This document shows, one piece after another, positions 24,364 through 46,399 of a stretch of 64,000 nucleotides of DNA. Made by a program: the position numbers and the translations under genes. The DNA comes from Geopsychrobacter electrodiphilus DSM 16401 (GTDB taxonomy: Bacteria; Desulfobacterota; Desulfuromonadia; Desulfuromonadales; Geopsychrobacteraceae), in assembly GCF_000384395.1 (NCBI RefSeq), contig NZ_ARWE01000001.1:2516501-2580500 (forward strand). The letters are read 5' to 3'. The stretch's first letter is position 1. Every line of letters begins with the position of its first letter. Under the pieces are notes generated by a model, which ran no database searches, had not been told where the DNA came from, and worked only from the letters and a program-made list of their open reading frames with translations.

Positions 24364-25260
24364 ATGAAAATGTTCAAATCGAGTAGAGCCTACCTGATAC
24401 TTACAGTCATTCTGTGTGTCATTGCCAGCGGCTCGCTGGCTCTCGCTGGATCCCATCATGAGAAAAAAAGCCACCATGTCAAGCCGGCCAAAGACCTGCC
24501 AACTGCTTCTACAACCGATATCCTTGGCTCCGCCGCACAGTTCGGCGTTTTCGGCGGCGGCGCCGGCATGACAAACCAGGGAATTCTTACCATTGTGAAC
24601 GGGGATATCGGCACAACCGGTGTATCGACCCTGGTGACCGGATTCCACGATAGCAATGCCGTATTTACCGAAACCACCATGAACATCGGGCAAGTCAACG
24701 GTACCGTACACACGGCCACCGCGCCGGCCGGTTCGGTCCCGAACGTTATTGCCGCAGCGGCCGCACTTGATGCTCAAACCGCCTTCGACAATCTCTCTCC
24801 CGCAGCGCTTCCCGGTGGCATAGATGTTTCCGCCTTTGGTGGCGGAGCCGGCGAACTCGGAAATCGCACCCTCGCACCCGGTGTGTATCAGTCGGCGCCA
24901 GGTTCCTTTGCGATCCAGGGCGGAGATCTCACCCTTGATGCCCGTGGTGATAAAAAAGCGGTCTGGGTTTTCCAGATGGCAACCACACTGACGGTCGGCG
25001 GCCCGGGTGCAGCTTTCCCCCAGAGCGTCATTCTGGTGAACGGCGCGCAGGCCAAAAACGTCTTCTGGCAGGTCGGCAGTGCTGCAACAATTAACGCAGC
25101 AGGCGGCGGCACCATGGCAGGAACCATCATTGCCTCTTCCGGTGCGGCATTCTCTACAGCTGGTAACGTCGTCCCCGTGATTCTCGAAGGCCGTGTACTT
25201 GCCCTGCATGCTTCTGTCACTCTGGTAAATACCCAGATTAACGTACCCGCAGTTAAATAG
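24364..25260 (+). CDS. Secreted DUF3494 (ice-binding-like) protein 1
   Basis: A 298-residue protein with AAAAGGAG before the ATG. A Sec signal (residues 1-29, ending LALAGS) and a His/Lys-rich linker (HHEKKSHHVK) are followed by a full DUF3494 domain from about residue 55: FGVFGGGAGMTNQG, then NGDIGTTGVSTLVTGFHD, then GVYQSAPGSFAIQGGDLTLD, AVWVFQMATTLTVG and AKNVFWQVGSAATI. DUF3494 folds as a right-handed beta-solenoid; characterised members bind ice, but many occur in non-cold bacteria as adhesins. It pairs with a close paralogue 56 bases downstream. Confidence 0.93.
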   Translation: MKMFKSSRAYLILTVILCVIASGSLALAGSHHEKKSHHVKPAKDLPTASTTDILGSAAQFGVFGGGAGMTNQGILTIVNGDIGTTGVSTLVTGFHDSNAVFTETTMNIGQVNGTVHTATAPAGSVPNVIAAAAALDAQTAFDNLSPAALPGGIDVSAFGGGAGELGNRTLAPGVYQSAPGSFAIQGGDLTLDARGDKKAVWVFQMATTLTVGGPGAAFPQSVILVNGAQAKNVFWQVGSAATINAAGGGTMAGTIIASSGAAFSTAGNVVPVILEGRVLALHASVTLVNTQINVPAVK

Positions 25261-25316
25261 AGGCTGGTGCCTGAATGAATAATCGCAGTTGAAACTGCTT
25301 TCAATAAGGAAACAAC

Positions 25317-26342
25317 ATGAAGAAGTTAAAGGTCGGCAAAGTTTATCTGGTTTTGATGGTCATGCTGAGTGTTATCTTCAGCAGTTCGCTGGTTTTCGCC
25401 GGCTCCCAACAAGACTGCAATGAGCATAGGGATGATTCCAACAGGCATGAGCATAGTTCACTTGTCTATGCTGATTCCCATCTGCATCGTAAGCACAACA
25501 ATAAAGAGCACAACAACAACGGTAACACCAAAGAGCCCAACAACGACAACCACAGTAACAATGGCAATAACAATCCACCCAGCGTTCCGCCCGTCGTTTT
25601 AACGCCTAACGTCCTTGGCTCCGCTTCATTGTTTGGAGTTTTCGGTGGCGGCGCCGGCATGACCAACCAGGGAATTCTGACTGTCGTTAATGGCGATATC
25701 GGCACCACCGCGGCCTCGACTTTGATCACCGGTTTCCACGACAGCAATGCCGTTTTTACCGAAACTCCCCTGAATATCGGGGCAGTCAACGGTACCGTAC
25801 ATACGGCCACTGCTCCATTTGGTTCGGTCCCGAACGCCATTGCCACCGCGGCGGCACTTGATGCCCAAATCGCCTTTGATAATCTCTCCCCCGCCACACT
25901 CCCCGGTGGCATGGATGTCTCCGCCTTTGGTGGTGGAGCCGGTGAACTCGGTAATCGCACCCTCAGCCCCGGAGTCTATCTCTCCGCTCCGGGTTCCTTT
26001 GCGATCCAGGGTGGTGATCTCACCCTGGATGCCGCTGGTAACGCCAATGCAATCTGGGTTTTCCAGATGGCCACCACTCTGACGGTTGGTAGTCCGGGTT
26101 TCCCCCAGAGCGTTGTTTTAGTCAATGGTGCTCAGGCCAAGAACGTCTTCTGGCAAGTCGGCAGTGCGGCAACGATTAACGCAGCTGGCGGCGGCACCAT
26201 GGCCGGAACCATCATTGCTTATTCGGGAGCTAGCTTCTCGACTGCCGGCAATGTCGTCCCCGTGACTCTGAATGGCCGCGTACTGGCCCTGCACGCTTCA
26301 GTCACGCTGGTAAACACCCTGATTAACGTGCCTGCTCCCTAA
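25317..26342 (+). CDS. Secreted DUF3494 protein 2 with Asn/His-rich linker
   Basis: A 341-residue paralogue of the preceding gene. After the signal peptide (ending LVFAGS) comes an unusually long linker, about residues 30-92, made mostly of His, Asn, Glu, Lys and Asp (HRKHNNKEHNNNGN), then a DUF3494 domain from about residue 98 that is nearly the same as in protein 1 through most of its length. The linker could bind metal or act as a flexible spacer. AAGGAAACAAC precedes the ATG. A strong terminator follows, so the two form one transcript. Confidence 0.93.
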   Translation: MKKLKVGKVYLVLMVMLSVIFSSSLVFAGSQQDCNEHRDDSNRHEHSSLVYADSHLHRKHNNKEHNNNGNTKEPNNDNHSNNGNNNPPSVPPVVLTPNVLGSASLFGVFGGGAGMTNQGILTVVNGDIGTTAASTLITGFHDSNAVFTETPLNIGAVNGTVHTATAPFGSVPNAIATAAALDAQIAFDNLSPATLPGGMDVSAFGGGAGELGNRTLSPGVYLSAPGSFAIQGGDLTLDAAGNANAIWVFQMATTLTVGSPGFPQSVVLVNGAQAKNVFWQVGSAATINAAGGGTMAGTIIAYSGASFSTAGNVVPVTLNGRVLALHASVTLVNTLINVPAP

Positions 26343-26366
26343 GAAACAGGTTTCAAGACAGGCAAT

Positions 26367-26417
26367 AAGAAGGGAGCCAGGCTGCTGATTAAAAGCAGAC
26401 TGGCTCCCTTCTTTGTG
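26367..26417 (+). terminator. Terminator after the DUF3494 pair
   Basis: A 14-bp stem (AAGAAGGGAGCCAG with CTGGCTCCCTTCTT) plus an inner CTGC/GCAG stem, then TGTGT. It lies 25 bases after the stop codon and is strongly folded; the T-run is short. Confidence 0.8.
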
Positions 26418-26447
26418 TCTATTAGACTTTTGGTGCTACGGTTATTC

Positions 26448-27446
26448 TTATGACCGGACGATCCCCAGTTTCCGCATCCGGGCGCGGAGGGTGCTGGGAT
26501 TGAGGCCCAACAGAAGTGCCGCTCCGTTTTTGCCATCGATGCGCCAGCCAGCATCCTGCAACACCTGAAAAACATAATCACGTTCCAGGTCGATCAAAGC
26601 CACAACACCCTGCCCCACCACTCCTTCTGTCTGTCGATCCTCGTCAAAGCAGTTCAAAACCTGGAGAGTTGAACCCTGACTGATGATAACAGCCCGCTCG
26701 ATGACGCTCTCTAATTCCCACAGGTTTCCGGGCCAGGGATATTCCTGAAGTTTCTTCAGGGTCGCTTCAGGAACGGTCGTTACCTCCCTGCCAAGCTTCT
26801 GATTAAATTGGCCTAGAAAGTGATCGACGAGCAGCGGGATATCTTCCTTGCGTTCCCGGAGCGGCGGCAGGGTGATGGAAAAAAGATTGAGTTGGGCATA
26901 GAGGTCTTGCCGGGACTTGCTGTTGGGGATTTCTTTTTTTAAATTGCGGTTGGTGGCCAGAATGATCCGCACATCGGTCTTGATGGTGCGGAGACTCCCC
27001 AGGAGTTCTAACTCACCATCCTGAATCACCCGCAGGAGCTTGCGTTGCAGCTCCAGCGACAGGTTACCGATTTCGTCAAGAAAAAGGGTACCGCCAACGG
27101 CCATTTCGAAGCGTCCGATCTGTCGGTTATCGACTCCAGCTCCTTCCTCTTTTTCTTCCCCTAAAAGTTCGCGGGCGATACGGTTCTCCGGCAAAGCTGC
27201 ACAGTTGACCGTGATCATCGGCTTGTTTTTGCGCGCACTGCAATGGTAAATCATGCGAGCGATCATGCCCTTCCCAGTGCCGGACTCACCCAGAAGAAGA
27301 ACAGGAGCATTCAGGGGCGCAACCTGCTTTACACTCTGAAACACCTTCGCAAGAGCGGCGCTTCGACCTATTATTTCGTCGAATTTTAACTGCGGCGCGA
27401 CCTTTGTCTCGAAGGAATGCTTTTCTGGTGGTATGAGGGTTCTCAA
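26448..27446 (-). CDS. Sigma-54-type AAA+ protein with lost GAFTGA loop and no receiver
   Basis: A 332-residue protein that starts at a TTG with GGAG nine bases upstream. It consists of an AAA+ domain (about 21-250) and a Fis-type C-terminal helix-turn-helix ending LGLNPSTLRARMRKLGI, and lacks any receiver. It is a paralogue of the regulator at 27719-29275. Walker A (GESGTGKG, 53-60) and Walker B (LFLDEI, 121-126) are intact. The GAFTGA loop reads EEGAGVD (about 100-106), the second arginine finger is Gln (Gln185 in DLYAQLN) and the sensor-II Arg is Trp (Trp243 in GNLWEL). It probably cannot activate sigma-54 alone; an inhibitor or co-oligomer role is inferred. A sigma-54-like promoter precedes it. 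Confidence 0.88.
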   Translation of the reverse strand: MRTLIPPEKHSFETKVAPQLKFDEIIGRSAALAKVFQSVKQVAPLNAPVLLLGESGTGKGMIARMIYHCSARKNKPMITVNCAALPENRIARELLGEEKEEGAGVDNRQIGRFEMAVGGTLFLDEIGNLSLELQRKLLRVIQDGELELLGSLRTIKTDVRIILATNRNLKKEIPNSKSRQDLYAQLNLFSITLPPLRERKEDIPLLVDHFLGQFNQKLGREVTTVPEATLKKLQEYPWPGNLWELESVIERAVIISQGSTLQVLNCFDEDRQTEGVVGQGVVALIDLERDYVFQVLQDAGWRIDGKNGAALLLGLNPSTLRARMRKLGIVRS

Positions 27447-27533
27447 AAGTTATGTCTCCGTCTATCCATCCGGAATTAACACTATTGTTTTCCTGGGCCT
27501 ATTGGTGATGGCCAGGGTGTGATTAATTGAATT

Positions 27534-27561
27534 TGCAACTCGCGTACCAGAGGTGGTACGC
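27534..27561 (-). promoter_or_regulatory. Sigma-54 promoter overlapping an operator-like palindrome
   Basis: On the minus strand, CTGGTACGCGAGTTGCAA has GG and GC ten bases apart and differs from TGGCACGN4TTGC only at the fourth base. The palindrome GCGTACCAGAGGTGGTACGC (27542-27561) covers the -24 side, so a bound protein would block the promoter. It lies about 90 bases upstream of the TTG start of the degenerate AAA+ gene. Confidence 0.6.
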
Positions 27562-27718: not shown

Positions 27719-29275
27719 CTATTGCCTGGCAATGCCCATTTTTCGCATGCGGGCACGCAGGGTGCTGGGGTTGAGACCCAAAAGGAGCGCCGCGCCGCTT
27801 TTTCCTTCGATGCGCCACCCGGTTTGCTGCAGCACCTGGCAGATATGATCGTGTTCCAGATCAGCGAGGGCCTTGATTTCCTGGTTTTCAACCTCACTGG
27901 CTCCCACATCCGCCACAGCCTGGATCATTTCAAAGCGGTCCAGAACCTGAAGTGAATTTCCCTGGCTGGTAATGACCGCCCGCTCGATGATGCTTTCCAG
28001 CTCCCGCACGTTGCCGGGCCAGTGATACTCATGGAGATGGTTCAGAGTGTTGGTCGAGACCGTCTCTATTTTCTTCCCGATTTTTTTGTTGAAGATGGCA
28101 ACGAAATGGTTGACCAGCAGCGGGATATCTTCCTTGCGCTCCCTTAAGGGCGGCAGGGTGATAGGGAACACGTTGAGCCGGTAATAGAGATCCTGCCTGA
28201 ACTTGCCGGTGCGAATCTCTTCTTTCAAATCACGGTTGGTGGCCGCGATGATCCGCACATCGGTCTTGATGGTGCGGGGGCTGCCCAGCCGCTCAAACTC
28301 GCCGTCCTGAATCACTCGCAGGAGTTTGCTTTGCAGTTCCAAAGGCATTTCACCAATTTCGTCGAGAAAAATAGTGCCTCCGTTGGCCAGCTCAAAGCGG
28401 CCGATCTGCCGGGTATCAGAACCGGTAAACGCTCCCTTTTCCCGGCCGAAGAGCTCGCTTTCCACCAGAGTAGCAGGAAGCGTCGTGCAGTTGACCGTAA
28501 TAATGGGATGGTCCTTGCGCGTGCTGCTGCGATGGATTGCTCGCGCCACCACCCCTTTACCGGTGCCGGTCTCCCCCAGCAACAGCACGGTTGCATTCAT
28601 GGGTGCGACCTGTTGGACCTGTGAATATACGACCGCAAGGGCATCACTTTGACCGACGATTTCGCCGAAATTGTATTTTTTGTCCACCTCATTCCGCAGG
28701 TAAACATTCTCCTCTTTGAGCCGGTCTTTCAGCTGTCTTATCTCCGCATAGGATTTATGCAGGGATTTTTCTGCCTTTTTACGTTCCTCTACTTCCTGGA
28801 TGAGTTGCATATTCGCACTGGTCAGGTCACTCGTCCGCTCTTGCACCGTCTCTTCCAGCCGCATGTTGTGATGCTGGAGTTTTTTGTACAGCATCCGCAC
28901 TTCCAGCATATTGCGGATCCGCGTCTTGACTTCGACCAGTTCAAATGGCTTGCTGATGAAATCCTTTGCGCCGACTTCGAGGGCCCGCATCTTGTGTCCC
29001 GGTTGGGCGGTAATCACCAGAACCGGAATATAGCCCTCCGGGTTTTGGGCCTGAAGGGCTTCCATCACCTGAAATCCATCCATTCCCGGCATCTGCAGGT
29101 CGAGCAGGATCAAATCGTAATTATTTTCGTGGTGCAGCGCACAGACTTCTACAGGGTTCGTCGTTGAAGTCACGCAGGTATAGCCAGCGTCACTCAGCAA
29201 CTGTTCCAGCAGCTCCACATTGGTCTTCTGATCATCGACAACCAGGATTTTGGCGTTTAAAATTTCGGCGGTCAT
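27719..29275 (-). CDS. NtrC-type sigma-54 activator with receiver
   Basis: A 518-residue protein. Receiver domain about 8-125 with phospho-acceptor Asp59 (LILLDLQMPGMDG) and Lys109; coiled-coil linker about 130-200; AAA+ domain about 203-435 with Walker A GETGTGKG (234-241), intact GAFTGS (281-286), Walker B FLDEIG (303-308), DLYYRLN arginine finger and WPGNVREL sensor II; and a Fis-type helix-turn-helix ending LGLNPSTLRARMRKMGI. It should drive sigma-54 promoters when phosphorylated. Its start overlaps the stop of the hybrid kinase (ATGA), so the kinase is its cognate partner. The DUF3494 promoters nearby are the natural candidate targets. Confidence 0.94.
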   Translation of the reverse strand: MTAEILNAKILVVDDQKTNVELLEQLLSDAGYTCVTSTTNPVEVCALHHENNYDLILLDLQMPGMDGFQVMEALQAQNPEGYIPVLVITAQPGHKMRALEVGAKDFISKPFELVEVKTRIRNMLEVRMLYKKLQHHNMRLEETVQERTSDLTSANMQLIQEVEERKKAEKSLHKSYAEIRQLKDRLKEENVYLRNEVDKKYNFGEIVGQSDALAVVYSQVQQVAPMNATVLLLGETGTGKGVVARAIHRSSTRKDHPIITVNCTTLPATLVESELFGREKGAFTGSDTRQIGRFELANGGTIFLDEIGEMPLELQSKLLRVIQDGEFERLGSPRTIKTDVRIIAATNRDLKEEIRTGKFRQDLYYRLNVFPITLPPLRERKEDIPLLVNHFVAIFNKKIGKKIETVSTNTLNHLHEYHWPGNVRELESIIERAVITSQGNSLQVLDRFEMIQAVADVGASEVENQEIKALADLEHDHICQVLQQTGWRIEGKSGAALLLGLNPSTLRARMRKMGIARQ

Positions 29276-32200
29276 GTTTTTGATTTTCCCTTTTCGACGG
29301 CCATGGCCGCCTCCATTTTTGCATGTTTCAGCGTCAGGTCCAGGGTATCCATGAACTCGGCTACCTTGATCGGTTTGGTGAGATAGCGGAAAAATCCGGC
29401 TTCAAGCCCCTTTTCAATATCGCGGGGGATAGCATTGGCACTCAAGGCAATGACCGGAATGTGCGCTGTTTCCGGAATGTCAGCCAGAATTTTCAGAGCA
29501 TCAATGCCACTGATACCGGGCAGATTGATATCCATCAAAATCACATCCGGCTGAGAGGTGCGGGCAATCTCGACCCCTTTAATTGCGTCTTGCGCACTCA
29601 GAAAGCGAATGTCGGGCCGACGCGCCAGAAGATCTTCGACCAGCATCAGGTTCGCCGGGTTGTCCTCAACATAGAGCAGGGTCCTCTTCTGCTCGTCCGC
29701 TTGATCATCCGTTGCGACGATTGTTGTGAATTGGTGGATGTGGGTGGACGCCTGGTGTTCAGTCGTCTGAATCAGTTCGAACCAGAACACGCTCCCCTCC
29801 CCAACCGTACTCTCAAATCCGATACCACCACCCATCGATTCGACCAGACGCTTACAGACCACCAGGCCGATACCGGTCCCTTCTTCAACGTCACCCTTTT
29901 GGCCGAGGCGATTAAACGGCTGGAAGAGTTGCGTAAGCTGTTCCGGAGTCAGCCCCGCGCCGGTATCACGGACACTGATTCGAATAAAATCCGGGGGGGT
30001 CAAGGTACAGCTCACCGTAATCGTTCCGTATTCCTTATTGTACTTGATCGCGTTGGAAAGCAGATTGAGGAGTATCTGCTTCACCCGTGTCCGGTCGGCG
30101 TTGACAAAACAAGGGGATTTAATCTCGGAGAAGATCACCTGAATATTGCGTTCCTTGGCCTGAGGTTCAACCATGGCCTCGCACTCGTTCAAGACGTCCT
30201 CAAGGGAGACCGGTTCCAGTGATAGCGAGAGTTTACCGGACTCGATCAACGCCAGATCGAGGATTTCATTGATCAGTTCCAGCAGATACCAGCCGGCTTT
30301 TAGAATTTGATCAATGCTCCTCTTCTGGACAGGGGTCGGCTCCGGCTTTCCCGATTCCATCAGCTGTGCAAACCCGAGAATCGCTCCGAGCGGGGTACGC
30401 AGCTCATGACTCATGCTGGAAAGAAAATCTGATTTAGCGAGGTTAGCTTTTTCTGCCACCGACCTGGCACTCTCCAGTTCGACGTTCTTTTCCCTTAATG
30501 CCTCATCCAGGCGTTTGCGCTCGGTCACGTCGCGGGCCCCGAAGAAGATGCCCTGTAGCTTGCTGTCCCGATCGTAGAAGACGTTGGCATTGAAAGAGAC
30601 CACCGTCTCCTTGCCGTCACGGGCCCGTGCGGTGAGTTCATAGTTAGAGGTGTTTATTTCTTTCAGCACCCGTTTAATCCCGTCCTCGACCAGAGAAGGA
30701 TCAGTGAAGTAGTTCTTGAATGGTGCGCCGATCAATTCCTCGCGCGTGCACCCGGTGAGCGCTTCCATCTGCTTGTTAACATCGGTGATGATGCCGGACG
30801 GATTGGTGGTCGTGATCGCGTCAATGTTAGCTTCAATCAGGTTGCGGGTATAAAACTGCTGGTCCTGCAAACGCTGACTGAGTTCCTTCTGCTCTTTCTC
30901 AATCTGTTTGCGCGCGGTGTTATCTGTACCGATAAGCAGATAGCCAATAATAGTCTCTTGATCATCACGCAGGGCGGTGACCGAGACGACCGCCGGGAAG
31001 CGACTGCCATCCTTGCGGATATAGGTCAGCTCGTAGATATCCTCAATGCCGCGCCGCGCCTTGAAGACCAATGCGTCGAAGCCCGGGGTGATCTCGGTCT
31101 CGAGCTCGGTACTGAGCGCCTGGGCGCGGGTGATAATCTCCTGGGGATCAGAAATATCAGCCGGGGTGTTCTTGTTCACCACCTCGGCGGCGGTGTAGCC
31201 GAGCATCTTCTCGGCGCCGACGTTGAAGATCTGAATAACCCCCTCGGCATCGGTGGCGATGCTTGAGAAGTTGGCGCTATTGAAAATCGCCCTCTGCAGC
31301 GCTCCCGCCTGGAGGAGGGCCTCTTCGGCCTGTTTGCGCGCAGTGTTATCGGTACCGATGAGCAGATAACCGATGATGGTCCCCTGATCATCACGCAGGG
31401 CGGTGACCGAGACGACCGCCGGGAAGCGACTGCCATCCTTGCGGATGTAGGTCAGTTCGTAGATATCCTCGATGCCGCGCCGCGCCTTGAAGACCAATGC
31501 ATCGAAGCCCGGAGTGATCTCGGTCTCGAGCTCGAGGGTCAACGCCTGGGCGCGGGTGATAATCTCCTGCGGATCGGAGATGTCAGCCGGGGTGTTCTTG
31601 TTCACCACCTCGGCGGCGGTGTAGCCGAGCATCTTCTCGGCGCCGACGTTAAAGATCTGGATGACCCCCTTCTCATCCGTTGCAATACTCGAGAAGTTGG
31701 CGCTGTTGAAAATCGCGCTCTGCAGAGCTCCCGCCTGGAGGAGGGCCTCTTCGGCCTGCTTGCGAGCAGTGTTGTCGGTACCGATAAGCAGATAGCCGAT
31801 AATAGTCTCTTGATCATCACGCAGGGCGGTGACCGAGACGACCGCCGGGAAGCGGCTGCCATCCTTGCGGATGTAGGTCAGCTCGTAAATATCCTCAATG
31901 CCGCGCCGCGCCTTGAAGACCAGGGCGTCAAAGCCCGGGGTGATCTCGGTCTCGAGCTCAATGGTCAGCGCCTGGGCGCGGGTGATAATCTCCTGCGGAT
32001 CGGAAATGTCAGCCGGGGTGTTCTTGTTCACCACCTCGGCGGCGGTGTAGCCGAGCATCTTCTCGGCGCCGACGTTAAAGATCTGGATGACCCCCTTCTC
32101 ATCCGTGGCGATACTCGAGAAGTTGGCGCTGTGGAAAATTGCGTTTTGCAAGGCGCCCGCCTGGATCAGTGCCGCTTCGGCCTGCTTGCGGTCGGTAATG

Positions 32201-33519
32201 TCCTCCATGGCCAGCAGGATAATGTCCGAACCGATTTTCTCGCGGAAGATCTGCCGCGCATTGAGCAGGATAAACTTGTGGCCGATGCCGGGAAAATCAT
32301 GTTCAACTTCGTAGCCATTGATCACGGTATCCAGGGGGAGGATTTCCTCGACCAGCAGTCGCAGTTGGGGAATATCCCACTGTCGGTTGCCGATATCATA
32401 GATGAAATTCCCGATTGTTTCCTCGGGGGTGACTTTGAACATCTCGTAGAAGCTGTGATTGGCGGTAAGAATTTTTAAATCGAAATTAAGCACCACCAAC
32501 GGCTCGCGCAGCGTATCGACAATATTTTCAGCGTATTCCCTGGCGTCCTGGATTTCCATTTCCAACTGCCTGCGCTCGGTAATGTCCTCCATGGCCAGCA
32601 GGATAATGTCCGAGCCGATTTTTTCGCGAAAGATCTGGCGGGCGCTGAGCAGAATGATCTTGTGCCCGATGCCGGGAAAATCATGCTCGACCTCATAGTC
32701 CTTGATCACGGTATTCCGGGGGAGAATTTCCTCGACCATGAGTCGCAGCTGGGGAATGTCCCATTGCCGGTTACCGACTTCGTAGATGAAATGACCGATG
32801 GTTTCCTTGGGGGTGACCTTGAAGGTCTCGTAGAAGCAGTGGTTGGCGGTGAGAATCTCCAGATCAGAGTCCAGCACCAACAGGGGCGCACGCAGGGTTT
32901 CGACAATATTCTCGGAATATTCCCGCGCATCCTGGATTTCGGATTCCAACTCCCTGGCCACCGTGACATCGACGATAGAGGAAAGGATGTCCCTCCCATC
33001 GCTCTCATTCGTACCCAGGACGGTACTTTGAATCTGGGTATGGATCACCTGACCGTTTTTTTGAGTCAGCTTGATTTCACAGCCCTGCATATCATTTTTT
33101 TGTAAAACATTTTTTAGGTGACAGCTAAAAACTTTTCGCCCCTCGGCATCGGCGATGAAACGGCTGATGGGAATATCTGCGAGCAGTTCCCGCTCAATAC
33201 CGAGCAGACTGGCGCCGGCCAGGTTGATTTCCTGTATCAGCCCCTGCGCATCAAAGGTGAAATAGCCGACAGGAGCAAAATCATAGAGTTCAGAATATTT
33301 ATCCCGCGATAACTCAAGCTTTTGTTGGGCTTGTCGGAGTTCGTCACTCTGCATCTCCAGCTCGATCTGGTGAACCTCTAGTTCATGGACGAGCCGCTGC
33401 GTCTCTTCCTCATTGTGGGGGAAATTCACCGAGGATGATCTCTCCCCCAGCTGATCTTCGGCAAGCAGGCGTAATTCGGCGTCTGCTATCGGCTGCCCCT
33501 TGCGTTTGTTGCTTTTCAT
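29272..33519 (-). CDS. Hybrid sensor histidine kinase with seven PAS domains
   Basis: A 1415-residue soluble-looking kinase with no obvious membrane helix. A coiled N-terminus (HELEVHQIEL) leads to PAS1 (about 75-190), PAS2 and PAS3 (about 204-331 and 332-459), PAS4 to PAS6 (from 459, 601 and 743; near-identical) and PAS7 (about 890-1010). HisKA with FLSSMSHELRTPL (His1038), an ATPase domain (about 1138-1251, with NLLSNAIKY, DTGAGL and GTGIGL) and a receiver (Asp1330 in LMDINLPG) follow. The repeated PAS units point to recent tandem duplication. The neighbour NtrC regulator is the likely phosphotransfer target. AGAGGAATCC precedes the ATG. The signal sensed is unknown. Confidence 0.94.
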   Translation of the reverse strand: MKSNKRKGQPIADAELRLLAEDQLGERSSSVNFPHNEEETQRLVHELEVHQIELEMQSDELRQAQQKLELSRDKYSELYDFAPVGYFTFDAQGLIQEINLAGASLLGIERELLADIPISRFIADAEGRKVFSCHLKNVLQKNDMQGCEIKLTQKNGQVIHTQIQSTVLGTNESDGRDILSSIVDVTVARELESEIQDAREYSENIVETLRAPLLVLDSDLEILTANHCFYETFKVTPKETIGHFIYEVGNRQWDIPQLRLMVEEILPRNTVIKDYEVEHDFPGIGHKIILLSARQIFREKIGSDIILLAMEDITERRQLEMEIQDAREYAENIVDTLREPLVVLNFDLKILTANHSFYEMFKVTPEETIGNFIYDIGNRQWDIPQLRLLVEEILPLDTVINGYEVEHDFPGIGHKFILLNARQIFREKIGSDIILLAMEDITDRKQAEAALIQAGALQNAIFHSANFSSIATDEKGVIQIFNVGAEKMLGYTAAEVVNKNTPADISDPQEIITRAQALTIELETEITPGFDALVFKARRGIEDIYELTYIRKDGSRFPAVVSVTALRDDQETIIGYLLIGTDNTARKQAEEALLQAGALQSAIFNSANFSSIATDEKGVIQIFNVGAEKMLGYTAAEVVNKNTPADISDPQEIITRAQALTLELETEITPGFDALVFKARRGIEDIYELTYIRKDGSRFPAVVSVTALRDDQGTIIGYLLIGTDNTARKQAEEALLQAGALQRAIFNSANFSSIATDAEGVIQIFNVGAEKMLGYTAAEVVNKNTPADISDPQEIITRAQALSTELETEITPGFDALVFKARRGIEDIYELTYIRKDGSRFPAVVSVTALRDDQETIIGYLLIGTDNTARKQIEKEQKELSQRLQDQQFYTRNLIEANIDAITTTNPSGIITDVNKQMEALTGCTREELIGAPFKNYFTDPSLVEDGIKRVLKEINTSNYELTARARDGKETVVSFNANVFYDRDSKLQGIFFGARDVTERKRLDEALREKNVELESARSVAEKANLAKSDFLSSMSHELRTPLGAILGFAQLMESGKPEPTPVQKRSIDQILKAGWYLLELINEILDLALIESGKLSLSLEPVSLEDVLNECEAMVEPQAKERNIQVIFSEIKSPCFVNADRTRVKQILLNLLSNAIKYNKEYGTITVSCTLTPPDFIRISVRDTGAGLTPEQLTQLFQPFNRLGQKGDVEEGTGIGLVVCKRLVESMGGGIGFESTVGEGSVFWFELIQTTEHQASTHIHQFTTIVATDDQADEQKRTLLYVEDNPANLMLVEDLLARRPDIRFLSAQDAIKGVEIARTSQPDVILMDINLPGISGIDALKILADIPETAHIPVIALSANAIPRDIEKGLEAGFFRYLTKPIKVAEFMDTLDLTLKHAKMEAAMAVEKGKSKT
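30868..32145 (-). repeat. Three tandem 426-bp PAS-coding repeats
   Basis: Units begin at 32145, 31719 and 31293 on the minus strand. Landmark words recur exactly 426 bases apart (for example GTAGCC at 31195, 31621 and 32047). Protein units differ at only a handful of positions; the third diverges in its last 15 codons. Recent duplication or gene conversion. Confidence 0.9.
32143..32910 (-). repeat. Two tandem 384-bp PAS-coding repeats
   Basis: PAS2 and PAS3 units of the same kinase, 128 codons each; the word CCAGCAGGAT occurs at 32211 and 32595, 384 bases apart. They are more diverged than the three 426-bp units and so older. Confidence 0.8.
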
Positions 33520-37206: not shown

Positions 37207-37296
37207 TATTTTGACCCGATTTAATCCCGGACGGCAGAGTCTACATTCGACTCCGGAGTGTGATTCTGAAAGGTCATTCTCCCTTCCATCTCCCAC

Positions 37297-37322
37297 CATA
37301 TTTAACGGTTTCGTTAAATATG
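37297..37322 (+). promoter_or_regulatory. Operator-like 26-bp palindrome
   Basis: CATATTTAACG, four bases, then CGTTAAATATG: a perfect inverted repeat with 11-base arms and TTTAAC/GTTAAA half-sites. It lies about 95 bases upstream of a -24/-12-like sequence, where an enhancer-binding protein would bind. The rest of 37207-37489 has no gene. Confidence 0.55.
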
Positions 37323-37414
37323 CGGGGCTAGAGTGACGCCCAGACAAACTTCTTCAACCATCAAAAATACGAAATTATTCTATATAATCAATAACTTACG
37401 CACGAAATGCCTAT

Positions 37415-37431
37415 TTGGCACAGAAGGTGTA
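37415..37431 (+). promoter_or_regulatory. Sigma-54-like promoter of DUF3494 gene 4
   Basis: TTTGGCACAGAAGGTGTA has a perfect TGGCAC but GT rather than GC at the -12 box (GG, ten bases, GT). It lies 60 bases before the ATG. Confidence 0.45.
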
Positions 37432-37489
37432 ACTATAGATTATTGACAGGTCATCCGATTTGTCACCATTCAAACGAGGAGTAAGTAAA

Positions 37490-38404: not shown

Positions 38405-40069
38405 ATGAATAAGTTTTTAAAAGGCACCAACAAATGGGTTATGGCCCTGCTCCTCGTCGCCTTTGTCGCCGGCTGCGGCAACAGTAACGATACGACCGGT
38501 TCCAATGAAATTACGGCATACTCTCTGAGTGGAACTGCTGGAGTTGTCACTGAAGGGACAACTCCCAAGACCATTGACGTGGTGATGCCCTTCGGGACAG
38601 ATCTCTCGCAGGCGCTGATTGCGACCTACACATCCACCGGCATTAGTGTTGGAATCAACAAGGTTCTGCAGGAGAGTGGAGTCACGGAGAATGTTTTTCT
38701 CTCGGTTCCCCAGGCTCCGGTCATTTACACCGTGACCGCGATAGACGGCTCAACGGCGACCTATGATGTCAACGTTACTGTGGCGGCAAACGATGCCGCT
38801 GTCATGACCACCTTTTCTCTTGGCAATACTGCAGGCATTGTCCATGAGAACACAGTTCCCAAGACCATTGACGTCGTGATGCCCTTCGGGACGGACCTGT
38901 CGCTCCCGCTGGCAGCGACTTTCGTGGCGACAGGGGACGTTAAGATCGGCACCATCCTTCAGGAGACTGGCATGACGAATGTGTTCCCCCTGAGCCCCCC
39001 GGCTTCGGCGATCTACACCGTCATTGCTGCAGATGGCATCGCAAAGGCGACCTATGAAGTCAACGTCACTGTGGCGGCAAACGATGCTGCTGTCATGGCC
39101 TCTTATTCAATTAACGGCTTTAATGGAATTATCAGCGAAAATACCAATCCCAAAACCATCGCAGTGTTGATGCCTTTCGGGACAGACCTGAGCACTGATC
39201 TGGCCGCAACATTCACAGCGTCCCCCGGAGCAAATGTCACGATTGAGACGACACCTCCGACACCGCAGGTAAGTGCTGTAACGCTGAATAATTTCAACAA
39301 TCAGGTCATTGTAAGCTATACGGTTACCGCTGCTGACACCGTTACAACCGCGACTTATGATGTCTCCGTTACTTTGGCCCCCGATACCGTACCGTTTGTC
39401 GACCTTGGAACAGCTGCCAACTACGCGATTTTGGCAAAAGCTGGTGTTTCAACGGTTCCCTACTCGGTCGTGACCGGGAATGTCGGTTTAAGTCCCACCG
39501 ACAGAGGCGCTTTAACCGGTTGGTCGGAGACCTCTGACACCACGGATACGTACTCGATTTCTGCGCAAGTGGTTGCACCTTTCGAACTCCACGCCGCCGA
39601 CTATCTGGGAGGATCGACTTCAGTTGACCTGACCACCGCCGTCGCCAACATGGAAACCGCGTACACCGACGCCACCGGACGGACCGCAACCTCGGCCGCG
39701 ACAACTAACGTCGGTGCCGGCACCCTGACGTCCTTAACCCTCACCCCCGGTGTCTATGAGTGGGGGACCGGAGTTATCATCCCGACCGATCTCACTCTCA
39801 ATGGTAGTGCAACTGATGTCTGGATCTTCAAAATTGCCGGGACCCTCGACATGGCCGCTGCCAAGAATGTCGTCCTCGTGGGTGGCGCACTGCCTGAGAA
39901 CATCTTCTGGCAAGTTACCGATGCGGTGAACATTGGGGCGAATACCCACTTTGAGGGAAATATCCTCGGTAAGACTGCAATCACATTTGGGAATCTCTCA
40001 TCGATCAACGGACGACTGTTGGCTCAGACTGCTGTCGCACTTGACGCGACCACAGTTACCGCTCCTTAA
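38405..40069 (+). CDS. DUF3494 lipoprotein with three Ig-like repeats (5)
   Basis: A 554-residue lipoprotein (lipobox FVAGC) with GGGAGG before the ATG. Three tandem repeats of about 90 residues come first (about 37-125, 128-215 and 218-320), each with a PKTIxVxMPFGTDLS core and a final ATYDVNVTV-type strand. They look like DUF5018-type/Ig-like modules. The C-terminal DUF3494 domain (about 330-554) is very close to that of gene 4 (TDVWIFKIAGTLDMAAAKNV). The repeats probably lift the DUF3494 head away from the outer membrane. A strong terminator follows. Confidence 0.92.
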   Translation: MNKFLKGTNKWVMALLLVAFVAGCGNSNDTTGSNEITAYSLSGTAGVVTEGTTPKTIDVVMPFGTDLSQALIATYTSTGISVGINKVLQESGVTENVFLSVPQAPVIYTVTAIDGSTATYDVNVTVAANDAAVMTTFSLGNTAGIVHENTVPKTIDVVMPFGTDLSLPLAATFVATGDVKIGTILQETGMTNVFPLSPPASAIYTVIAADGIAKATYEVNVTVAANDAAVMASYSINGFNGIISENTNPKTIAVLMPFGTDLSTDLAATFTASPGANVTIETTPPTPQVSAVTLNNFNNQVIVSYTVTAADTVTTATYDVSVTLAPDTVPFVDLGTAANYAILAKAGVSTVPYSVVTGNVGLSPTDRGALTGWSETSDTTDTYSISAQVVAPFELHAADYLGGSTSVDLTTAVANMETAYTDATGRTATSAATTNVGAGTLTSLTLTPGVYEWGTGVIIPTDLTLNGSATDVWIFKIAGTLDMAAAKNVVLVGGALPENIFWQVTDAVNIGANTHFEGNILGKTAITFGNLSSINGRLLAQTAVALDATTVTAP

Positions 40070-40283: not shown

Positions 40284-40460
40284 TCGCCTAGGAGGCTGTC
40301 GGACTATGAGGGTCGAAGCGAAAATTCGGAAGTTTGAGAACAGATTTTGGTTCGTTTGCAGGCTCATAGCCGTAGCTATGAGACAAAAAGGAACTAAAAT
40401 ATGGGCCAAACAGCCGGATTTGCAGCTGGCTCATGGATAGTCCGACAGGCTCCTAGCTGT
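40284..40460 (+). mobile_element. MITE-like element with CTAG target duplication
   Basis: About 170 bases bounded by terminal inverted repeats: CTAGGAGGCTGTCGGACTAT at 40288-40307 and the complement of CTAGGAGCCTGTCGGACTAT at 40437-40456 (19 of 20 positions). The outer CTAG on both sides could be a 4-bp target duplication, as with some IS5-group elements. Inside is a CTCATAGC/GCTATGAG hairpin and one 44-codon frame (40306-40440) with no known domain. No transposase is present, so it would have to be mobilised in trans. The remainder of 40187-40587 has no gene. Confidence 0.75.
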
Positions 40461-40587
40461 GGCATTTGGCGGTCTTACTAAATGTGACAGTTTTCCTTAA
40501 CGGTATTTCCCTCCACTCCGCAATATTTTTCTTAATTTATTCAATAAAAACAAAGCCTTAACCTTGCTAAATTAGAAAATATTTTCT

Positions 40588-40604
40588 CGGCAAGGTACTT
40601 GCTC
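40588..40604 (+). promoter_or_regulatory. Sigma-54 promoter of DUF3494 gene 6
   Basis: CGGCAAGGTACTTGCT has GG and GC ten bases apart, and differs from TGGCAC-N5-TTGCT at two positions. It lies about 150 bases upstream of the ATG. Just before it, CCTTAACCTTGCTAAATTAG (40556-40575) resembles a word upstream of the riboswitch leader at 44493-44512. Confidence 0.55.
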
Positions 40605-40754: not shown

Positions 40755-42095
40755 ATGAACAGCATTAAAGGGTATTTAAATAGTTGGTTTCTGGGGTTAC
40801 TCCTTATCACTTTTTTGGCCGGGTGCGGCGGCAGTAGTAACAGCGCTACCGATGCCACAACCGCCAAAGACACGAAGGCTATCACCACGTTTTCGCTTGA
40901 TGGCGCCACCGGGATCGTCGCAGAGTCAGCCAGGGAGATTCTGGTGACTCTGCCGAACGGCACACCACTAGAAGCTTTGGTTGCGAAATTCACCCTCACC
41001 GGCGAATCCGTCGCTGTCGGTTCGACGCCGCAGACGAGTGCTGTCACACGGAATGACTTTAGTAAACCGGTTGACTACAGGGTTACCGCTGAGGACAAGA
41101 CCCAGACGGTATATACCGTGACCGCGACCGTTGCTCCGGCTGAAGCCAAGGCCATTACCAGCTATTCGATTCGAAATGGGGCTGTTTTCATTGATGAAGC
41201 GACCAAGACTATTTCCGTGATCATGCCGGCCGGGACCGACAAAACGGCTCTGGTTGCGACTTTCATCACCACGGGGCAGTTCGTCGACGTGGTGAATACC
41301 GGACTCCAGCAGGAGAGTGGTTTTACGGTGAATGATTTTACCGATCCAGTAGACTATCTGGTGACCGCTGGCAATTCAACAGAGGCAACTTATAGCGTAA
41401 CAGTGACTGTGCGCTCTGCCCTTGGGCCCGACCCGGTCAATCTCGGCACCGCCGGCAATTTTGCAATTCTGGCCAAATCTGGGGTCTCAACCACCGGAGC
41501 CACTGCCATTGTCGGCAATATCGGCGTGAGTCCTTCCGCCGCAAGTTACATCACGGGATTTGCCCTCACCGCTGATTCCACCAACACCTTTTCAATCTCG
41601 TCGCTCGTGACCGGGAATCTCTACGCCGCCGATTATGCCACACCAACCCCGGCGAATATGACCACGGCGATCAGCGATATGGAAATCGCCTTCACCGACG
41701 CCGCCGGACGCTCAAACACCGATTACACCGAACTCTATGCCGGAGACATCAGCGGGCGCACCCTGGTTCCAGGCCTCTACAAATGGGGCACCGGAGTTCT
41801 TATCACCAGTGCCGGTGTGACTCTTAGCGGGGGAGCCGACGACGTCTGGATCTTCCAGATCGCTCAGGACCTCACCGTCAACAACAGCGCCATTGTGCAC
41901 CTGAGCGGCGGAGCCCAGGCCAAAAATATCTTCTGGCAGGTTTCCGGACAGGCGACCTTGGGTACGGCGGCAGACTTCAAGGGGATTTTGTTGAGTCAAA
42001 CCCTGATCTCGTTCAATACCGGCGCCAAATTAACCGGCCGAGCCCTGGCACAGACCGCAGTAACATTAAATGCCACGACCGTCACAGCGCCTTAG
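40755..42095 (+). CDS. DUF3494 lipoprotein with two Ig-like repeats (6)
   Basis: A 446-residue lipoprotein (lipobox FLAGC) with ACGAGGAGACAAAT before the ATG. Two repeats (about 40-125 and 128-217; TKTISVIMPAGTDKTALVAT and similar) precede a DUF3494 domain (about 222-446) of a third subtype: [73 protein letters not shown]. That subtype recurs in the deleted gene 7 and in gene 8. Its repeats are like those of gene 5, so the Ig parts have been mixed with different DUF3494 subtypes. Confidence 0.92.
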   Translation: MNSIKGYLNSWFLGLLLITFLAGCGGSSNSATDATTAKDTKAITTFSLDGATGIVAESAREILVTLPNGTPLEALVAKFTLTGESVAVGSTPQTSAVTRNDFSKPVDYRVTAEDKTQTVYTVTATVAPAEAKAITSYSIRNGAVFIDEATKTISVIMPAGTDKTALVATFITTGQFVDVVNTGLQQESGFTVNDFTDPVDYLVTAGNSTEATYSVTVTVRSALGPDPVNLGTAGNFAILAKSGVSTTGATAIVGNIGVSPSAASYITGFALTADSTNTFSISSLVTGNLYAADYATPTPANMTTAISDMEIAFTDAAGRSNTDYTELYAGDISGRTLVPGLYKWGTGVLITSAGVTLSGGADDVWIFQIAQDLTVNNSAIVHLSGGAQAKNIFWQVSGQATLGTAADFKGILLSQTLISFNTGAKLTGRALAQTAVTLNATTVTAP

Positions 42096-42142: not shown

Positions 42143-42282
42143 TGTCATAAGGTATGGCTGTTGCCGCTGCTCGGCAACTGGAATAAACCAAGGCAGGTTG
42201 AAGCAAAATGAACTTACTCGCATTTGATTCATTACTTGAGTTACTTTCAAAAGTTTATTAGGTGAGTCTGGAGGGACCAAAC

Positions 42283-42857
42283 ATGAAAATATTTAAAAGC
42301 TATCGCAATAAATGGATCATGACCCTGTTTATGTTAATATTCGCAGCCGGGTGCAGCAACAGTAACCACATCTCCATCAGTTCCGCGAGGGTAACAAATG
42401 CAAAGGCGATCACGACTTATTCGCTGAACGGGGCTGACGGGATAATTGATGAGTCGGCCAAGACCATATCAGTCACCATGCCAACCGGGACGAACCTGAC
42501 CGCCCTAACTGCGACATATACCACCACGGGGAAGTCCCTCGCTGTAGGTCCTACGCAGCAAATAAGTGGCGGCACCCCGAATGACTTCACTGCTCCGCTG
42601 AGCTATACGGTCACCGCTACTGACAGTTCAACTGCGATCTATACCATAAGCGCATCCGTTGCTCCGTCCGAGGCCAAAGCGCGCACCAGTTTTTCGCCGA
42701 GTGGTGTGACAGGAGCCATCAATGAAACGACCAAAACCATAGTGGTGGCCATGCCAACCGGGGCAGACCAGACTTGACCTTCAATACTGGCGCCAAAATG
42801 TACGGACGAGCGGTGGCACAAACCGCAGTAACATTGAATACGTCGGCCATGACTTAA
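42283..42857 (+). pseudogene. Deleted DUF3494 lipoprotein gene (7)
   Basis: ATG at 42283 after GGAGGG. The first 164 codons encode a lipoprotein signal (FAAGC) and one and a half Ig-like repeats like those of gene 6, then reach TGA at 42775-42777. Immediately after, in another frame (42780-42857), the last 25 codons of a DUF3494 domain appear: FNTGAKMYGRAVAQTAVTL, ending in TAA. Compared with gene 6 an internal stretch of about 0.8 kb, holding nearly the whole DUF3494 domain, is missing and the frame is broken. A short Ig-only lipoprotein could still be made. Confidence 0.85.
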
Positions 42858-43037: not shown

Positions 43038-43976
43038 TTAGGCGTCAGCGCACACTGCGATTCGATAGGCGTTCTTCCCTGCCGCTTTGGCCAGGTACAG
43101 CGCCTGGTCAGTGCTCTTCATCAAGGATTCCGCGTCCTCGCCATTCACTGGATAGATACTGACCCCGGCGCTGGTAGTTATGTCCACAATATGATCCTCT
43201 ATGTCATAAGGTTGCGACACGGCAGCGATTACTCTGGCCGCCACCAAGGCCGCATATTCAGCTCCGCTGACGTGCCACAGGGCGATGGCGAATTCGTCAC
43301 CCCCAAGGCGCGCCACGGTGTCCTCCTGGCGCACAGCAATCAACAGGCGTTTTGCGACCATTTTCAGCAAGATATCCCCGACGCCGTGGCCGAGGGTATC
43401 ATTGATCGCCTTGAAGCCATCCAAGTCCAGATAAATCATGGTCATGGCACCCCTGTTCCTCTGCGCATGAACCAGGGCCATCGTTATCCTGTCGTCGAAA
43501 AGTCGACGGTTGGCAAGGCCTGTCAGAGGGTCATTCAGCGCCAATTCTTCCAGCAACGCTACGTAACTGCGAGCCTTCTTATGCAACAGGCGAACTTCCA
43601 CCATGTTACGTACTCGCATCAACACTTCGGCCAAATCGAAGGGTTTGCTGACGAAATCTTTTGCGCCGCTCCGCAGCGCACGTAACTTGTGAGTTGGTTC
43701 GGCGGTCACGGCGAGGACTGGCAGGTAGCCATCCGTTTCAAGCTCCTTCAGGCCTTCCATCACCTGGAAACCATCCATATCGGGCATGCGCAGATCGAGA
43801 AGGATTAAATCGTAATGATTTTCACGGTGCAGCGCGCAGACAGAACAGGGGTCCTGGGTTGTGGTAATTTGCGTATAGCCGGCACCCCGCAGCATTGCTT
43901 CAAGCAGTTCCACATTGGTTTCCAGATCATCCACGATCAGAATGTCGGCATTCAGGATATCGGTGTTACTTACCAT
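43038..43976 (-). CDS. GGDEF response regulator (diguanylate cyclase)
   Basis: A 312-residue protein; ATG at 43976 with GGGAG eight bases upstream. The receiver (about 10-130, acceptor Asp61 in LILLDLRMPDMDG, Lys111) is very like that of the NtrC-type regulator at 27719-29275, suggesting shared ancestry or shared phosphodonor. A GGDEF domain follows (about 145-305; DPLTGLANRRLFDDR, DLDGFKAINDTLGH, RLGGDEF at 223-229). The active site is intact, and the inhibitory RxxD site (RQED, 216-219) sits five residues before it. It should make c-di-GMP or a related dinucleotide. A perfect sigma-54 promoter lies about 175 bases upstream. Confidence 0.93.
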   Translation of the reverse strand: MVSNTDILNADILIVDDLETNVELLEAMLRGAGYTQITTTQDPCSVCALHRENHYDLILLDLRMPDMDGFQVMEGLKELETDGYLPVLAVTAEPTHKLRALRSGAKDFVSKPFDLAEVLMRVRNMVEVRLLHKKARSYVALLEELALNDPLTGLANRRLFDDRITMALVHAQRNRGAMTMIYLDLDGFKAINDTLGHGVGDILLKMVAKRLLIAVRQEDTVARLGGDEFAIALWHVSGAEYAALVAARVIAAVSQPYDIEDHIVDITTSAGVSIYPVNGEDAESLMKSTDQALYLAKAAGKNAYRIAVCADA

Positions 43977-44149
43977 GACCAGGCTCCCGGGCATCTTCGG
44001 CGTTTGATTCATCATTTGCATATTCCAGGCATTTTCAGGAACGGGATTAGCTGTCTCATCCGGTCCCGACCAACAGAATGAATGCATAACCGAAAGTATT
44101 TCCGGCTAAAAACAGAATCATAATTTTTTGCTTTAACCAGTTAATACAT

Positions 44150-44166
44150 CGCAACGACCGTGCCAG
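44150..44166 (-). promoter_or_regulatory. Sigma-54 promoter of the GGDEF gene
   Basis: On the minus strand, CTGGCACGGTCGTTGCG is a full -24/-12 match and differs by one base from the promoter of the YegP-like gene at 9858-9876. Confidence 0.75.
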
Positions 44167-45244: not shown

Positions 45245-45290
45245 AGCAAGCTGTGCCCTCTCCCCCAGGGGGCCTCAAACTGACAAACAA

Positions 45291-45315
45291 AGACCTCGCC
45301 AATTTGGTGAGGTCT
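45291..45315 (+). terminator. Hairpin after the riboswitch-controlled gene
   Basis: AGACCTCGCC and GGTGAGGTCT pair over ten bases (one G-T) with loop AATTT. No T-run, so weak. Confidence 0.5.
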
Positions 45316-45504
45316 CTGCGGCTCTCTAAAGTTCCCCTGGAGGAAAATTCAAATACCCACCAATAATTTCTGTCAGTCACGACAGTTTTGTCAAACTCGA
45401 CAGATTCTGATGGCGGTTTTTGCCTCATAACCGGTGGGTGCTCCTTAAATTTTACCGTTCAATAACAAGCACTTGGTTATTCATTACCACCTATTTATTT
45501 TTTT

Positions 45505-45521
45505 TTGGCGCGCTACGTGAA
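45505..45521 (+). promoter_or_regulatory. Sigma-54-like promoter of DUF3494 gene 8
   Basis: TTGGCGCGCTACGTGAA: GG, ten bases, GA. Same word family as at 44545; lies 60 bases before the ATG. Confidence 0.4.
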
Positions 45522-45580
45522 GACTCCATACCGAGAAGAACATGCACGTTAGTTATTTAATAACTGTCAAAGGAGATTTC

Positions 45581-46399
45581 ATGAAAAGATTTATCGAACG
45601 GAAAGCTTATCTTTTATCGATGCTCGTACTGAGTGTTTTTGTCTGCACCCTGCCCGCCTACGCCGGTTCACATCACCGGAGCAGTGACGACAATGACCAA
45701 AATTCAACCAGTAGTACCTCCGCTGCAGGGCCCAAGGCCGTAAACCTCGGGACAGCCGGGGATTTTGTTATTCTGACAAAAACCGGAATCACCACCACTG
45801 GAACCACGGCAATTGTAGGAAACATGGGTGTTAGTCCTATCGTCGCAACGGCCATGACAGGATTTGGCCTGATTGCCGATTCGACGAATACATTTTCTAC
45901 CTCGGCCTTGGTCACCGGGAAAATCTACGCAGCCGACTATGCTCCACCGACCCCGACCATAATGACCACCGCAATCGGCGATATGCAAACCGCGTACACC
46001 GACGCCGCCGGAAGAATAAATCCTGATTTTGCTGAACTCGGGGGCGGAGATATCAGCGGCAAGACTCTTCTTCCCGGCCTCTACAACTGGAGCACAGACG
46101 TTTTAATCACGAACGCCGGCATTACTCTCGCCGGTGGCCCGAATGATATATGGATCCTGCAGATGGCTGGCAATCTAACCGTGAACAACAGCGCCATGGT
46201 GACCCTCCTCGGCGGCGCCCAGGCCAAGAACATCTTCTGGCAGGTTTCCGGCCAGGCGACCCTCGGAACAGCGGCTGACATGAAGGGGATCATCCTGAGC
46301 AAAACGTTGATTTCCATGAATACCGGCGCAAAACTGAGTGGCAGAGCTTTGGCACAGACCGCAGTTACCTTAATCGCAAATACGGTTACGGCCCCTTAA
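45581..46399 (+). CDS. Secreted DUF3494 protein (8)
   Basis: A 272-residue protein; the ATG at 45581 has AAAGGAGATTTC before it. A Sec signal ending PAYAGS, without a lipobox, and a short His/Asp/Ser linker ([15 protein letters not shown]) lead to a DUF3494 domain (about 50-272) closely like that of gene 6: [59 protein letters not shown]. It thus joins the secreted form of genes 1-2 with the domain subtype of gene 6. A strong terminator follows. Confidence 0.92.

Follow-up and report, generated by a model that had tools for sequence, protein, structure and literature searches.

Seven DUF3494 genes and a candidate sigma-54 control circuit in one locus of Geopsychrobacter electrodiphilus

Why does a single bacterium keep seven genes for DUF3494 proteins side by side, how are they controlled, and what do their products bind? 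The question arises from a stretch of 64,000 nucleotides of Geopsychrobacter electrodiphilus DSM 16401 (positions 2516501-2580500 of genome G000, one contig of 4,241,730 bases), which we call the window and to whose positions all coordinates refer. A profile search detected seven intact DUF3494 genes (g1 to g6 and g8) and one deleted copy (g7) within 24364-46399; the seven complete domains and the broken gene 7 listed in a preliminary description of this DNA agree with the search and with a remnant found behind g7. All seven intact genes carried a PF11999 (DUF3494) domain above the curated cut-off of 28.7 bits, with scores of 116-250 bits, and a search of the whole genome found only these seven, which are thus its complete set. 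The domain family itself is known; its setting here is unusual and ordered. With moderate confidence we favour the reading that this locus supplies the surface arm of a mobile envelope-stress module under sigma-54 control, with ice as the likeliest ligand, followed by another crystal or a mineral.

Regulatory genes lie between g2 and g3. Profile search identified a hybrid histidine kinase (HK, 29272..33519, -) that has numerous PAS domains and, at its C-terminus, a receiver; reading of the sequence revealed no obvious membrane span in it. Next to it is a response regulator (RR, 27719..29275, -) with a receiver, a sigma-54 AAA+ domain with a GAFTGS loop and a Fis-type helix-turn-helix (HTH), and hence of the sigma-54 enhancer-binding type. 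RR resembles NtrC-class regulators in these domains and in operators upstream of -24/-12 promoters, but it differs in its inferred targets, which include DUF3494 surface proteins as well as BON and DUF2959 envelope proteins. A paralogous AAA+ regulator (RR2, 26448..27446, -) does not belong to this type, as it lacks the receiver and has lost the GAFTGA loop while keeping AAA+ and HTH. A comparable RR2 paralogue with a changed loop is present in G135, a genome of another family in the same order (one contig, 3,958,620 bases), and RR2 may be a decoy or a brake.

Among the 136 genomes of the order, nine had a full-length match to RR (aligned from residue 1-4 to 517-518), namely eight of the nine PF11999 genomes versus one of the 127 others (Fisher 3e-11). 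An OmpA-family gene beside DUF3494 and a sigma-54 regulator were found within a few kb in eight of the nine PF11999 genomes; in the ninth, G134, the PF11999 genes are on contigs other than that of the regulator. Genome G129 possesses the regulator and the operator described below without a PF11999 match. As its kinase frame runs towards the end of a 3.8-kb contig, the missing DUF3494 gene may be an assembly gap.

Scanning both strands of the window with an approximate sigma-54 matrix gave 11 sites of at least 12 bits. Sigma-54-type promoters precede g1 (24176..24191, +, 12.2 bits), g3 (33841..33856, +, 14.1 bits, near-identical in relatives) and g6 (40588..40603, +, 13.4 bits; 9.3 bits in G135), and also RR2 (27534..27549, -, 15.3 bits, with an inverted repeat upstream) and a receiver-GGDEF regulator (44150..44165, -, 16.9 bits, best operator pair with 13 mismatches). 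A weak sigma-54-like promoter of g4 (37416..37431, +) reached 8.9 bits (10.7 bits in G135) and lies 123 nt after the operator start. The window scan detected no sigma-54-type promoter before g7 or g8, and no good one directly before g2, g5 or ompA.

The predicted operator is a pair of 16-bp dyads with the pattern CCTCAACATATTGAGG, at positions near -131 and -113 relative to the -24 box. This dyad pair was present in eight of ten promoter regions compared, with one half recognisable at g3 of the window and a degenerate version at g6. The pair before g1 (24044..24077, +) showed 0 mismatches to a pattern that was built with this site. Degenerate pairs precede g3 (33709..33742, +, 7 mismatches) and g6 (40457..40490, +, 10 mismatches; 8 in G135), and an operator-like pair precedes g4 (37293..37326, +, 8 mismatches; 7 in G135). 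From operator start to promoter the distance is about 120-132 bases at all four genes. A -24/-12 promoter with an upstream operator was found at g1, g3 and g6, and in weak form at g4.

With up to three mismatches, the pair pattern occurred at 15 places in eight of the 136 genomes (seven of these places belong to the eight upstream regions from which it had been made by eye), and the reversed pattern as a control gave 0. The pair was present in seven of the nine PF11999 genomes and in G129; a Fisher value for operator and PF11999 is partly circular and was not used. At all eight places outside the pattern-building set, a sigma-54-type promoter (10.9-16.6 bits) was located 120-133 nt downstream, at L179 on the other strand; by density, sites of at least 11 bits are expected in about 0.04 of 350-base stretches. 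The genes behind these new places encode BON proteins at L168 and L176, and DUF2959 lipoproteins at L175 and L177 (Pfam) and at L174 (likeness seen on reading). PAS proteins follow at L178, as identified by Pfam, and at L179, as judged from the sequence; L169 shows the beginning of a small membrane protein. Within the window itself, pairs resembling the operator, with 7-10 mismatches, lie at -129 to -136 before a gene pair of a CsbD-like protein and a BON protein, before a DUF1508 gene and before a gene for a small protein. The spacing was controlled by allowing up to ten mismatches: six of 11 promoters had a pair at 125-137 nt (13 offsets) versus two at 60-124 nt (65 offsets).

The promoters were also enriched in front of other DUF3494 genes. 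In the fetched loci, 14 of 115 upstream stretches contained a site of at least 12 bits, versus 2.8 expected from density. Six of these 14 belong to the lead genes of G135, G061, G001, G131, G130 and G100, and with g3 of the window seven of eight lead genes have a sigma-54-type promoter of at least 12 bits. An exact pattern derived from the window's promoters had 10 sites in G000, the highest number among the 136 genomes (0 with the reversed pattern); the six that lie in the window match by design, since the pattern was made from them. This signal is widespread, with at least one site in 72 of the 136 genomes. Since the same control signals stand before several genes, most of the set is probably switched on together under stress, and DUF3494 proteins thereby gain a predicted regulator, a predicted operator and a set of co-regulated genes. 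The top-scoring sigma-54-type promoter of the window (19.4 bits, 9128-9143, -) precedes genes for a tiny protein and a BON protein.

To what extent is this arrangement shared? We compared 53 genes of the window with a 114-kb region surrounding the G135 cluster and with three further 12-kb stretches of that genome, which appears to be Desulfuromonas soudanensis WTL (PMC4914508). The window genes of 22392-42095, minus g1 and g2, matched G135 in the same order. The common core block comprises HK, RR, g3-OmpA-g4-g5-g6 and a DUF1207 protein near the block edge (23060..24010, -, PF06727). Identities to G135 were 86% for RR, 84% for DUF1207 and g4, 82% for g6, 79% for HK and g3, 78% for a small DUF3185 gene, 73% for OmpA and g5, and 66% for RR2, with RpoB (80%) and LeuS (70%) as yardsticks. 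No syntenic flanks were found over 50 and 44 kb of G135 and 22 kb on either side in the window; the matches in the flanks were of the paralogue type only (a 38% identical RR-PilZ protein 31 kb away, BON proteins, one of them beside DUF1207 in G135, and a PAS protein).

As several block genes exceed the identity of RpoB and the flanks are not syntenic, the block was probably transferred between families, which suggests that DUF3494 genes and the circuit controlling them move as a unit. The same two observations speak against vertical inheritance, with RR, DUF1207, g4 and g6 above the RpoB value. However, HK, g3, OmpA, g5 and RR2 are below it, and therefore strong conservation combined with rearrangement may be an alternative to transfer. 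The orthologue of g8 (90% identity) is outside the G135 block, at 1501904-1502785. The preliminary description had regarded a fixed block in all relatives as an argument against its view. The order g3-OmpA-g4-g5-g6 with the regulators is indeed fixed between two genomes of different families, whereas g1, g2, g7, the GGDEF regulator and the location of g8 are variable. Elsewhere in the order, each of the seven remaining PF11999 genomes carries one or two copies. The HK frame is shorter in G135 (1292 versus 1430 aa from stop to stop), and three PAS stretches of the window HK (30904-32055, -) are 92-93% identical in DNA with a spacing of 426 nt, representing a recent internal tandem duplication.

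The products of the locus are diverse. The genes g1 (24364..25260, +, 174 bits for PF11999) and g2 (25317..26342, +, 178 bits) encode secreted proteins without lipobox, with a His-rich and a His/Asn-rich linker, respectively. Lipoproteins are encoded by g3 (34031..35875, +, 116 bits), with two Big_2 and one Big_5 domain followed by DUF3494, by the short g4 without stalk (37460..38308, +, 202 bits, likely start near 37490), by g5 with three MPFGTDLS-type repeats as found by reading (38405..40069, +, 198 bits), and by g6 with two repeats (40755..42095, +, 249 bits). An OmpA-family outer-membrane protein with a barrel (36029..37078, +, PF00691 and PF13505) sits between g3 and g4. The secreted g8 protein (45542..46399, +, likely start ATG 45575), again without lipobox, is the highest-scoring PF11999 copy of the genome (250 bits). 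The broken copy g7 (42262..42777, +, likely start ATG 42283) still has its lipobox-bearing signal peptide and, up to a stop at 42777, its DUF5018-like repeats, and has lost its DUF3494 domain. Compared with the 3' end of the g6 domain, the 74 nt at 42780..42853 (+) show 78% identity, and as this remnant is in another frame, an internal deletion is the plain reading.

On reading the sequences, g3-g6 and g7 showed a lipobox with Gly or Ser following the Cys, and g1, g2 and g8 showed plain signal peptides without lipobox, in line with the three secreted proteins and four lipoproteins counted before. The proposed stalk types were recovered as none in g4, His/Asn-rich linkers in g1 and g2, Big_2 in g3 and MPFGTDLS repeats in g5, with the reservation that the repeats of g5, g6 and g7 resemble DUF5018 and DUF6242 with scores under the Pfam cut-offs. 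Thus, of g3, g5 and g6, which have a lipobox and a C-terminal DUF3494 domain in common, only g3 has Ig-like repeats above cut-off. In g1, g2 and g8, the linkers are short, with many His, Asn or Ser residues.

In a tree of 135 DUF3494 domains, whose relatives come from the best 80 of 578 matches confirmed with g6, so that g6-like domains are over-represented, the seven intact domains occupied five places. The local duplicate g2 is the sister of g1 (support 100/98), and both group with Bacteroidota and Ignavibacteriota genes (100/100). The g3 domain groups with G135, G130 and a Desulfuromonadaceae metagenome-assembled genome (MAG); g4 and g5 are a local pair that groups with its G135 orthologues; and g6 groups with G135, the Kmv16 MAG and the CG_2015-17_54_20 MAG (100/93). 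The g8 domain pairs with a single gene of G135 (100/100), and a Bacteroidota group is their neighbour (94/95). The subtypes initially proposed, at least four (1/2; 3; 4/5; 6/7/8), thus become five places, with g8 separated from g6 by a branch just under full support (94/95). The view of a diversified surface repertoire is supported by these five places, the secreted and lipoprotein forms and the different stalks.

Which ligand could these domains bind? The model of the g6 domain (pLDDT 94) matched the ice-binding protein of Cryosericum odellii (9lhn/9li0) with a TM score of 0.95 and 1.3 A at 64% identity; the Cryosericum lineage is one of thawing permafrost. Antifreeze proteins of the sea-ice bacteria Flavobacterium frigoris and Colwellia and of snow mould shared 44-49% identity with g6 (FfIBP 4nu2, 44%). 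The g2 domain model (pLDDT 85) had a TM score of about 0.7 to the same family, and both modelled domains kept the beta-solenoid fold of the solved ice-binding proteins. Judged from the model, ice binding is plausible for g6, and by sequence likeness it is also plausible for g8, g4 and g5. The locus thus resembles the known DUF3494 ice binders (FfIBP, ColAFP, LeIBP and the Cryosericum odellii protein) in fold and sequence, and differs by seven copies of five types, a predicted common sigma-54 control signal and, possibly, the ligand. SfIBP_1 of Shewanella frigidimarina (6bg8), reportedly a proposed ice adhesin with tandem beta-sandwich domains, resembles g3 in the joining of Ig-like domains with DUF3494; the likeness to g3 is distant (68 bits), and the OmpA neighbour and the dedicated regulator distinguish the present locus.

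We propose the following mechanism. HK would sense a signal via its PAS domains and phosphorylate RR, which would then bind the paired 16-bp dyads some 120-135 bases upstream of the -24/-12 promoters and drive sigma-54 transcription of g1-g2, g3-OmpA, g4-g5 and g6. RR2 could act as a brake, and the receiver-GGDEF protein (43038..44087, -), a diguanylate cyclase whose receiver is 65% identical to that of RR, could add a c-di-GMP output. The g1 and g2 proteins would be exported in soluble form, and g8 would be exported separately. The g3, g5 and g6 proteins would be anchored to the outer membrane on Ig-like stalks, and g4 without a stalk. The beta-solenoids would grip a regular crystal surface, most likely ice, enabling survival of freezing or a hold on ice.

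Several observations weigh against parts of this proposal. Within the order, the PF11999 genome G055 has no full-length RR (its best match, 75%, misses the receiver), and its lead gene lacks a promoter at the 12-bit level; the search with up to three mismatches found no operator pair in G055 or G134. In the window, g4 has a weak promoter, the operators of g3 and g6 are degenerate (7 and 10 mismatches), and g8 has neither operator nor sigma-54-type promoter, which also applies to its G135 orthologue. A place of g8 in the operator regulon was therefore rejected. With respect to ice, the sequences of g1-g3 are only distantly like those of solved ice binders, and DUF3494 proteins also occur in the tropics and in hot springs (PMC7783341). 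The home of D. soudanensis, an anoxic brine 713 m underground, is not icy; this counts against ice if the name given to G135 is right, in which case D. soudanensis is the only named relative with the same block.

These points bear on the rival explanations. With the same module and control, a metal-reducing lineage of the subsurface could use these proteins to attach to a mineral or some other repeating surface, which we consider possible, though clearly less probable than ice. A mineral-like substrate for DUF3494 proteins has been suggested in print (PMC7783341), although the parts of the papers seen report no mineral binding of a DUF3494 protein. The source of D. soudanensis was a mine within banded iron formation, and the four lipoproteins with their OmpA neighbour resemble an attachment system. 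Among the best 80 of 578 matches, Sideroxydans, Gallionellaceae and archaea of DeMMO, a deep mine, appear in the record titles of close domains, but those of close loci also name palsa, fen, bog, Chersky, Glaciimonas and Polaromonas; the 64% identity of g6 to a protein deposited as ice-binding likewise favours ice. More tentatively still, the array could give a metal-reducing bacterium of the subsurface a range of binders for crystal (mineral) surfaces in place of antifreeze, on a mobile module that brings its own kinase, sigma-54 regulator and operator, and new DUF3494 types from other phyla could come under this operator once they have arrived; g1 and g2 resemble Bacteroidota and Ignavibacteriota genes. 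Given the predicted control, the ligand of subsurface DUF3494 proteins becomes a testable matter, both in the trigger of the kinase and in the choice between ice and a mineral.

Two further explanations dispense with a varied set of crystal binders. The operator and promoter that precede BON, DUF2959 and PAS genes in relatives, and the window's sigma-54-type promoters before the CsbD-like/BON pair, the DUF1508 gene and the gene for the small protein, would also fit general osmotic or envelope stress proteins, with DUF3494 in or on the envelope and no external crystal ligand. In view of the conserved fold of solved ice binders, the export signals and the stalks, we regard this as unlikely. Ordinary tandem expansion of one antifreeze gene for dose, with meaningless variety, would agree with the local pairs g1/g2 and g4/g5 and with the bulk production proposed for tandem copies (PMC9957290), but it conflicts with the five tree places and the mixed anchoring and stalks, and is in our estimate very improbable.

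How unusual is the concentration itself, which the preliminary description had singled out together with dedicated regulators? PF11999 was carried by two of nine genomes of the genus, two of 44 of the family and nine of 136 of the order. G135 likewise had seven copies, and a single block contained four of these. Among 395 genomes sampled from the phylum, 24 matched PF11999 (20 over cut-off), and seven copies were present only in G000, with two other genomes having six weak ones. Elsewhere, some loci had between four and six DUF3494 copies, including partial ones; a Kiritimatiellae contig, for example, contained six DUF3494 open reading frames (ORFs) in 15 kb and a Gallionellaceae contig four. 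In the Central Arctic Ocean, MAGs have up to nine ice-binding protein genes per genome, often adjacent (PMC9957290). The concentration is thus unusual in the order and the phylum sample, but clusters of up to nine had already been published; as multi-copy clusters exist elsewhere, concentration alone is already known and the control is the new part. The Arctic MAGs resemble the present locus in many adjacent genes with two-component regulators among the neighbours and differ in the regulators' DNA-binding domain, pfam04397, while sigma-54 control or operators do not occur in the parts of that paper seen (PMC9957290).

Searches of open-licence PMC articles found none linking DUF3494 with Geobacter, none joining ice-binding, adhesin, Geobacter and lipoprotein, and none for "ice-binding protein" with Desulfuromonas or for Cryosericum odellii ice-binding. 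Matches combining ice-binding protein, DUF3494 and response regulator never held OmpA, and among the matches listed for DUF3494, mineral, two-component and sigma-54, none contained DUF3494. The pfam04397 domain of the Arctic regulators is LytTR.

The tie between regulator and DUF3494 has a clear boundary. Evidence from regulator and promoters is strong within the order and absent outside it in the phylum sample, so that the claim of dedicated regulators holds in the order, by RR co-occurrence, common operators and sigma-54-type promoters, and not beyond. A search for the RR receiver in the 395 phylum genomes, with 10 candidates scored per genome, gave matches in three (one of them 44% identical), of which only G000 also had PF11999; the other 23 of the 24 PF11999 genomes had no match, and G162 has the receiver without PF11999. 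Of 80 named loci (the best 80 of 578), 27 had any neighbour match, many of them low-identity OmpA or kinase matches; this, too, counts against a general link. The receiver nevertheless forms a class of its own, with 54-77% identity across 11 genomes reached by 12 handles and 42% for the best other receiver listed (E 1e-15 or better). Near DUF3494, the outputs of this class vary among sigma-54 AAA+, GGDEF, nucleotide cyclase, kinase and PAS. Ten genomes from outside were inspected: seven picked for DUF3494 with such a neighbour contained 14 class members, 11 within about 6 kb of DUF3494 and three not, and three picked without such a neighbour had no class member. As nearly all PF11999 genomes of the phylum sample do without it and some members have no DUF3494 within about 6 kb, the RR receiver was rejected as a universal DUF3494 marker. 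In other phyla, L069, L078, L084, L034, L041, L087 and L108 have receivers that are 62-73% identical to that of RR within about 6 kb of DUF3494; for three further class members in those genomes, the stretch fetched contained no DUF3494.

Some minor features of the window deserve mention. The motif ACGTANTTTCACTGAGTT lies just before the ribosome site of g3 (33998-34015, +), occurs once in the window and was kept with small changes in six of six aligned leaders; a search of the leader RNA for a known riboswitch gave no Rfam match at gathering score. A c-di-GMP-I (GEMM) riboswitch was found at 44772-44848 (+, 42.8 bits), in which an A replaces the first G of the GGC core, as is typical of the cGAMP-sensing GEMM-Ib riboswitches of Geobacter. 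An ORF of 80 aa (45002-45244) follows downstream; its C-terminal part includes a hydrophobic stretch, and Pfam gave no match for it. Because this ORF lies in between, control of g8 by the riboswitch at 44772 is not supported. Further downstream, at 50775-55022 (+), a lipoprotein of 1415 aa contains many CxxCH haem motifs (by reading) and a Cytochrome_C7 match, as in metal-reducing bacteria.

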